Source: an uncultured Clostridia bacterium
GTDB lineage: Bacteria > Bacillota > Clostridia > Saccharofermentanales > Saccharofermentanaceae
Direction: 5' to 3'
Assembly (NCBI GenBank): GCA_946403085.1
Contig: CAMIYM010000003.1
Coordinates: 62,001-126,000, forward strand
DNA: 64,000 nt
Part shown: positions 59,957-60,126 of the stretch, piece by piece
Numbering within the stretch: the stretch's first letter is position 1
How the letters are laid out: every line of letters starts with the position of its first letter
Notes under the pieces: model-generated
Told to the model about the DNA's origin: nothing
The model's input: the letters and a program-made list of their open reading frames with translations, nothing else
Database searches by the model: none
Translations under genes and position numbers: made by a program

Positions 59957-60055
59957 ATGACTGGCATTATTACGGCAAATATCATCATGTGTTGTCGAAT
60001 GCTGAAGCTCCCGGGCAGCAAGGTTGACCGGTGCGTCATGTCGATGTTTATTTAA
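59957..60055 (+). CDS. Putative sulfur-responsive leader peptide MTGIITANIIMCCRMLKLPGSKVDRCVMSMFI
   Basis: ATG with GGAG SD 7 nt upstream; 3 Cys + 5 Met in 32 aa, tandem Cys codons TGTTGT; precedes terminator/antiterminator; not in ORF track. Confidence 0.65.
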   Translation: MTGIITANIIMCCRMLKLPGSKVDRCVMSMFI

Positions 60056-60088
60056 ATCCATTCATTAGCAAGAAGCACGAGAACTGAT

Positions 60089-60126
60089 AACTGCCCGGGA
60101 GATGCAATTCTTCCGGGCAGTTTTTT
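60089..60126 (+). terminator. Strong intrinsic terminator in the leader of LysR(2), attenuator candidate
   Basis: AACTGCCCGGGAGA-TGCAAT-TCTTCCGGGCAGTT + T-run; upstream 60008-60018 CTCCCGGGCAG is an exact complement of 60091-60101 CTGCCCGGGAG. Confidence 0.85.

Follow-up and report, generated by a model that had tools for sequence, protein, structure and literature searches.

A short, cysteine- and methionine-rich reading frame, which precedes a LysR-type regulator gene in an uncultured Clostridia bacterium, is very probably the leader of a ribosome-mediated transcription attenuator that senses charged tRNA-Cys, and one copy of an element that recurs across a clostridial sulfur regulon. The argument rests on what the sequence itself offers: the parts of the element, their conservation, the covariation of regions 2 and 3, their spacing, and the association with sulfur genes. 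The features of the locus are as follows, with positions counted in the window, i.e., the whole 64,000-nucleotide stretch of DNA that was analysed:

58920..59876, forward strand: serine O-acetyltransferase gene (cysE-like), the upstream gene (TIGR01172 E 2e-50, below its cut-off; NF041874 above its cut-off)
59891..59909, forward strand: palindrome ACCTA-N9-TAGGT (ACCTATTGACATAGTAGGT), a candidate operator overlapping the -35 box (sequence; homologues)
59896..59924, forward strand: sigma-70-type promoter TTGACA-17-TACCAT, after the cysE stop (10/12 matches; same position in homologues)
59940..59949, forward strand: Shine-Dalgarno (SD) region of the leader, AGGAATGGAG (AAAGGAG(G) at the same place in most homologues)
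59957..60055, forward strand: leader peptide ORF, 32 codons plus TAA (direct reading; homologues; frame test)
59990..59995, forward strand: TGT TGT, tandem Cys codons (12-13) at which stalling is proposed (sequence; homologues)
60008..60018, forward strand: region 2, 5' arm of the antiterminator, within the leader ORF, CTCCCGGGCAG (complementarity; covariation)
60089..60126, forward strand: intrinsic terminator, stem 60089-60122 and U-tract 60121-60126 (terminator scan; local fold -26.1 kcal/mol)
60091..60101, forward strand: region 3, shared by the antiterminator (3' arm) and the terminator (5' arm), CTGCCCGGGAG (complementarity; terminator scan; covariation)
60154..61056, forward strand: LysR-type regulator, the gene behind the switch (sequence; family search)
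61199..62701, forward strand: nitrogenase-like subunit closest to MarD, a putative indirect target via LysR (PDB chains 9fmg_A and 9d9u_A, E ~1e-127)
62671..63999, forward strand: second nitrogenase-like subunit (MarK/NifK-like by position), which runs off the window

The leader ORF of the window encodes MTGIITANIIMCCRMLKLPGSKVDRCVMSMFI, in which five Met and three Cys account for 8 of 32 residues. A preliminary description of this DNA had named the SD-led ORF of 32 codons with its 8 sulfur residues and TGTTGT at 59990-59995, an exact 11-nt complement in which region 2 (60008-60018) is the reverse complement of region 3 (60091-60101), and a terminator of 14 bp whose U-tract lies 28 nt before LysR. 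Direct reading confirms the ORF and the complement, and the terminator matches the sequence base for base: the terminator scan returned a stem of 14 pairs at 60089-60122 with a run of T behind it, and the last U of the tract (60126) lies 28 nt before the LysR ATG (60154). The leader appears to be translated, to judge by its SD and by frame specificity: among 114 elements that were chosen by core, arm and terminator, with the start codon disregarded, 106 have an SD-led ATG that opens the frame of the Cys codons, compared to 1 and 0 for the other two frames. Homologues found with an RNA model that left the Cys codons free carry one to four of them at the same place (one in L232 and L235, three in L221, four in L246). 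Apart from this, the conservation of the peptide is poor. In most leaders the first Cys is at codon 13 or 14, and it can be as early as codon 5 or 6; the residues N-terminal of it vary widely, with the N-terminal part differing by downstream gene. In LysR-type leaders the part behind the arm is read in another frame (...NSRANGLTGVSCRCLK in L031 vs ...KLPGSKVDRCVMSMFI in the window), and the C-terminal peptide sequence therefore seems unimportant. Searches of the leader peptides against Pfam and NCBIfam gave no match.

Three further observations concern the leaders. Behind the Cys codons, Arg is encoded by CGA in 113/114 elements, with the third base left free in the search pattern, and RNA pairing accounts for this preference in only about a third of the elements. 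A weak model match before a metN-like gene (L238, G416 C2:73072-73183) has a leader ending in ...MMRML without any Cys codon, and is perhaps a Met-sensing relative or a chance match. On one contig (L122, CACYRM010000098.1, 1048-1202), two leader copies lie ~127 nt apart with masked or unknown bases nearby, and represent either tandem attenuators or an assembly artefact.

The complementarity between leader arm and terminator arm exceeds chance: a helix of 7-16 bp joins the two arms in 106/106 scored distinct elements, with a mean best score of 29.2 compared to 15.3 +/- 2.8 for shuffled arms, and 13 of 4240 shuffled arms reached the observed helix score. When an unguided MAFFT alignment was submitted to RNAalifold, exactly the pairing of regions 2 and 3 was selected. 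In an alignment of 61 diverse elements (A1), the named structure, which combines the 2:3 helix with an inner ATGGC/GCCAT helix and an internal hairpin, has 87.6% of its cells paired, vs 25-52% when slid, and 14 of its 21 pairs show changes on both sides. All five covariation measures were reached by 0/500 shuffles, with the usual reservation that the sequences are related; the 2:3 antiterminator helix thus covaries. Pairing is kept with different letters in L097 (CCGAACAGATGATA/TATCATTTGTTCGG), L176 (CGGGCTGTA/TACAGCCCG) and L236 (CTCCCAGGC/GCCTGGGAG), and the near-complete arm replacements or compensated changes in L097, L176, L098 and L236 are hard to explain otherwise than by 2:3 pairing. 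The antiterminator is supported by these comparisons as a predicted structure, in which the 5' arm of the terminator has an alternative partner within the leader. Together with an SD-led ORF near the 5' end of the transcript (its start inferred from the promoter match) and clustered codons for the end product, this is the make-up of a ribosome-mediated transcription attenuator.

The element is widespread in, and beyond, the genus of the window's genome. LysR orthologues in three genomes (G019, G033 and G008; 93-96% identical proteins) are preceded by leaders of the form MTGI...MCCRML..., in which arm and terminator are the same; immediately before four LysR orthologues (L005-L008), no leader of this kind is present. 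The pattern TGYTGYCGNATGCT-N4-10-CCCGGG occurs in 50/87 genomes of the genus, and its reversed control gave no match. With a covariance model (R1), the element was found in 71/87 genomes of the genus (labelled Saccharofermentans), 40/299 genomes of a second clostridial family (f29), 17/393 genomes of the class and 7/400 of the phylum, where some of the weakest class and phylum matches look like chance. A scan of GTDB representatives gave, among the matches listed, loci labelled Saccharofermentans, Lachnospiraceae, Butyrivibrio, Blautia, Acetatifactor, Eubacterium and others; a few of the matches listed fall in unrelated phyla and are likely chance. The parsed loci yielded at least 115 distinct candidate leader peptides, a few of them false or truncated, of which 106 were scored. 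Matches of another pattern, ATGTGYTGYCGNATG, to an unrelated conserved stretch (ATGTGTTGCCGCATG, once each in many genomes) were discarded, since they have neither SD nor arm. The leader is conserved in related genomes, and the objection that it might not be, raised in the preliminary description, fails. In the window's genome, the model search found four copies, three of them strong and the fourth weaker (C3:121987, C3:157857, C3:153206, C10:78366); a plasmid collection contained no match. At the gathering threshold, Rfam returned nothing at the element in the window and 15 representative loci, and the best hit of a permissive scan was a weak one to the His_leader family (RF00514, E 0.01, below cut-off). 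The T-box family (RF00230) had no threshold match at the leader; T-box matches lie elsewhere in the window's genome, and two of the genes after them look like trp genes.

The genes behind the element point to sulfur metabolism. The downstream clusters comprise 61 PLP enzymes of Cys/Met metabolism, which are O-acetylhomoserine sulfhydrylases or cystathionine synthases, 44 substrate-binding lipoproteins of the NlpA/MetQ and other families, 7 LysR regulators and 4 ABC permeases; 2 JAB-domain proteins, 2 dehydrogenase-like proteins and single members of other kinds complete the list. Almost every downstream gene that could be classified is a sulfur gene or a transporter gene; cysS is not among the clusters. 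Of the copies in the window's genome, one stands before LysR, one before the gene of a MetQ-type lipoprotein, one before that of a cystathionine-synthase-like PLP enzyme, and the last before that of a glutamate-cysteine-ligase-like protein, which was identified by reading its sequence without a family search. That last copy (L222/L250, G000 C10:78269-78472) has a GTG-start Cys leader (...MCIMCCFKSPSRMFQVM) and the arms CTCCCGTATG/GTGTACGGGAG. A different Cys leader (MYDRKFYFQSLVRSNFRCGRMCCS...), which lacks a terminator, precedes the O-acetylhomoserine sulfhydrylase gene metY (L252/L326, G000 C2:209995-210138; L315; L322), and its segment TGTTGTTCCTTTTCAAA can pair with the metY SD region; it is possibly a translational Cys attenuator in the window's genome, kept in three species.

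In the window, the preliminary description had placed the leader upstream of the second LysR gene and nitrogenase-like genes. Its position is correct, but it directly precedes LysR only, and the genes beyond are closest to methylthio-alkane reductase rather than to nitrogenase. Among solved nitrogenase-like proteins, the product of the gene at 61199 matches chain 9fmg_A with E 1.8e-127, compared to 2e-35 or weaker for nitrogenases, and 9FMG is a methylthio-alkane reductase (PMC12552129); the predicted protein would therefore belong closest to this sulfur enzyme. Since the locus contains, besides the Mar-like genes, cysE, an ABC transporter of the nitrate/sulfonate/taurine type and another LysR gene, it looks like one for sulfur acquisition. 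Two inverted repeats between LysR and the nitrogenase-like genes, TTATAAACCACAGTTATAA (61069-61087) and AAAACC-TATCAAATTGAT-GGTTTT (61154-61179), are possible sites for LysR and the sulfur operator protein. Genes upstream of the leader differ by species, and cysE takes this place only in the window among the loci examined. In G005, a homologous leader lies between LysR1 and O-acetylhomoserine sulfhydrylase, with LysR2 two genes further on, which suggests that the leader of the window may have come to face LysR2 through loss or replacement of intervening genes.

The preliminary description was silent on the promoter, which sits inside the ACCTA-N9-TAGGT palindrome and is conserved together with it and the leader: CCTA-N9-TAGG or CCTATTGAC, the palindrome-embedded promoter, lies upstream of 95/113 leaders. 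In the window's genome, the palindrome-promoter is further found before a cysteine-desulfurase-like gene, which has no leader, and before the metY gene with its Cys leader.

The spacing of the element fits a stalled ribosome. Numbered so that the first Cys codon begins at position zero, region 2 starts at +17 in 66/106 elements (range 13-21). The front edge of a ribosome with the second Cys codon in its A site lies near +16, as known from toeprints, so that a ribosome stalled there leaves region 2 just free. In folding calculations, the mean probability of the 2:3 helix is 0.95 when region 3 has just been transcribed and the ribosome waits at the Cys codons, and 0 when the ribosome sits on region 2. 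In attenuation of the trp type, region 2 is covered by the ribosome at the stop codon. Here, the leader stop codon lies ~35-70 nt past region 2, and with a ribosome parked there and region 3 just made the mean probability is still 0.94 at equilibrium; classical masking at the stop codon is ruled out by geometry and folding. The OFF step must therefore differ from the trp type. The preliminary description had applied trp-type logic to cysteine; the Cys-codon attenuator is largely supported, given the covariation and the sulfur genes downstream, but the trp-like OFF step at the stop codon does not. Region 2 is unpaired at 0.39 behind a ribosome at the stop codon vs 0.56 ahead of a stalled one (Wilcoxon p = 4e-9), a lower accessibility that is only suggestive, as the folded stretches differ in length. 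In the element of the window, equilibrium favours the completed terminator over the antiterminator, even when the ribosome is stalled at Cys. Antitermination must therefore be kinetic in this case.

A hairpin that could protect region 2, between TGTCGAATGC and GCGTTCGGC, is possible in 23/61 elements (>=7/8 pairs). The corresponding helix (1:1' plus 2:2') is 76% paired vs 30-46% when slid; it shows no covariation, and 1:1' is absent in the window. As the reason for the conserved TGTCGAATGC core, the 1:1' hairpin can therefore account for that conservation only partially.

From these parts, the following course of events may be proposed. Transcription would start at the promoter overlapping the ACCTA-N9-TAGGT palindrome, and a ribosome would begin the leader. 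If Cys-tRNA is scarce, the ribosome would wait at the Cys codons with its front edge just before region 2 (60008-60018), and the free region 2 could pair with region 3 (60091-60101) once this is made; the terminator would be blocked and RNA polymerase would proceed into LysR. If Cys-tRNA is plentiful, the ribosome would cross region 2, region 3 would pair with region 4, and transcription would stop. Both the stalling at the Cys codons and this direction of the response are what we infer from the arrangement. In the OFF state, regions 2 and 3 may be kept apart by moving or trailing ribosomes, aided by the protector hairpin in about a third of the homologues. LysR, in turn, would probably activate the methylthio-alkane-reductase genes. 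Given that the regulated gene is the LysR preceding these genes, a cysteine shortage would feed into sulfur salvage.

Other readings of the same stretch have to be weighed. The hairpin might be the terminator of cysE only, with LysR expressed independently and the short ORF incidental, for which its position between cysE and LysR in the window would speak. However, a promoter lies between the cysE stop and the leader, and the 28 nt between U-tract and start codon leave no room for a separate sigma-70 promoter of LysR. In addition, the leader arm covaries with the terminator arm, and the element is kept with other upstream genes and before unrelated sulfur genes: five loci whose upstream gene is not cysE (L002, L003, L004, L036 and L041) still have leader, arm and terminator. 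This reading, which the preliminary description had regarded as one that would overturn its own, fails on these points and is very unlikely. The conserved nucleotide core TGTCGAATGC, which exceeds what coding needs and pairs with GCGTTCGGC in the 23 elements mentioned, might instead belong to a metabolite-binding riboswitch or a protein-binding leader, and be translatable by coincidence. That pairing is without covariation, however, SD and frame go specifically with the Cys codons, the central part of the element differs strongly between members in both sequence and length and shows no conserved core for binding a ligand, and no Rfam family matches at threshold, which leaves this the least credible of the three and next to negligible.

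Somewhat less remote, yet still improbable, is an arrest peptide, in which a small molecule or the thiol state, instead of tRNA charging, would make a nascent ...Met-Cys-Cys-Arg stall the ribosome and operate the same RNA switch. MCCRM is found in nearly all pattern-found elements, though the pattern itself imposed ATG TGY TGY CGN ATG, and the near-invariant CGA codon as well as the usual position of the first Cys at codon 13-14 would agree with such a peptide. Against it, the residues before Cys are variable, Cys is at codon 5 or 6 in some leaders, and homologues found with the RNA model carry MMCRM, MCMRM, CCCR, or CCCC without Arg. With such varied residues before the Cys codons and such different cores, no fixed arrest sequence is needed.

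In Firmicutes, T-boxes and riboswitches predominate, and leader-peptide attenuation is regarded as rare. A survey from 2010 stated that no leader-peptide system had been known outside Proteobacteria and Actinobacteria before its own, the His leader peptide attenuator of hisS*/hisZ in Bacillus (PMC2965389). The latter is likewise a leader-peptide attenuator of Firmicutes, but uses His codons and controls synthetase-family genes in Bacillus. A close counterpart for cysteine is the uORFC-8-2 motif, a Cys-codon attenuator proposed upstream of cysS in Rhodobacterales, which has a short ORF, tandem Cys codons usually at 14-15, an intrinsic terminator and proposed stalling on low Cys-tRNA (PMC8632094). 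In contrast to the clostridial element, which belongs to Clostridia and many sulfur genes, uses mostly TGT and has a separate arm 17 nt downstream, uORFC-8-2 belongs to Alphaproteobacteria and cysS only, and its Cys codons are mostly TGC and lie inside the stem; the comparison of the two covers these features and the absence of Rfam matches. Mycobacterial cys operons have polycysteine leader ORFs that are leaderless and without obvious terminators (PMC1262725), and Cys-rich uORFs of M. smegmatis have been described as translation attenuation (Canestrari 2020, as cited in PMC13236596). There, too, Cys-rich upstream ORFs control sulfur genes in response to cysteine, whereas the clostridial element is SD-led and has an intrinsic terminator and antiterminator.

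With the attenuators of the trp and his type, the element shares regulatory codons in a leader and mutually exclusive antiterminator and terminator structures before the first gene. It differs from them in that a ribosome at the stop codon spares region 2, in that no 1:2 hairpin is universal, and in that a whole regulon uses copies of one element. Cys T-boxes are a known feature of Clostridia, and cysteine control in Firmicutes is exerted by T-box and CymR, although other cysteine controls may exist in clostridia according to a C. perfringens study (PMC2940859). T-box and CymR share the physiological input and part of the target genes with the element, but the T-box reads the tRNA directly without translation. 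The element was not found in the open-access literature searched, nor in Rfam, Pfam or NCBIfam. By inference, its mechanism is ribosome-mediated attenuation, not trp-like in stop-codon geometry; the class seems new in sequence, host range and regulon, with Cys attenuators themselves known elsewhere.

On balance, we lean towards a broader view: this element would be a principal cysteine sensor of many gut and rumen Clostridia, an uncatalogued regulon-wide class of attenuators that moves between sulfur genes as a cassette of promoter, operator, leader and terminator, that has a translational form (G000 C2:209995), and that gates nitrogenase-like sulfur salvage via LysR in the window. If true, it would represent an RNA family missed by annotation pipelines, and would provide a testable marker for the sulfur regulon of Lachnospiraceae and Saccharofermentans. 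It would also show how these abundant gut and rumen bacteria measure cysteine, and would tie a lack of cysteine to a nitrogenase-like enzyme by which sulfur is set free from methylthio compounds.
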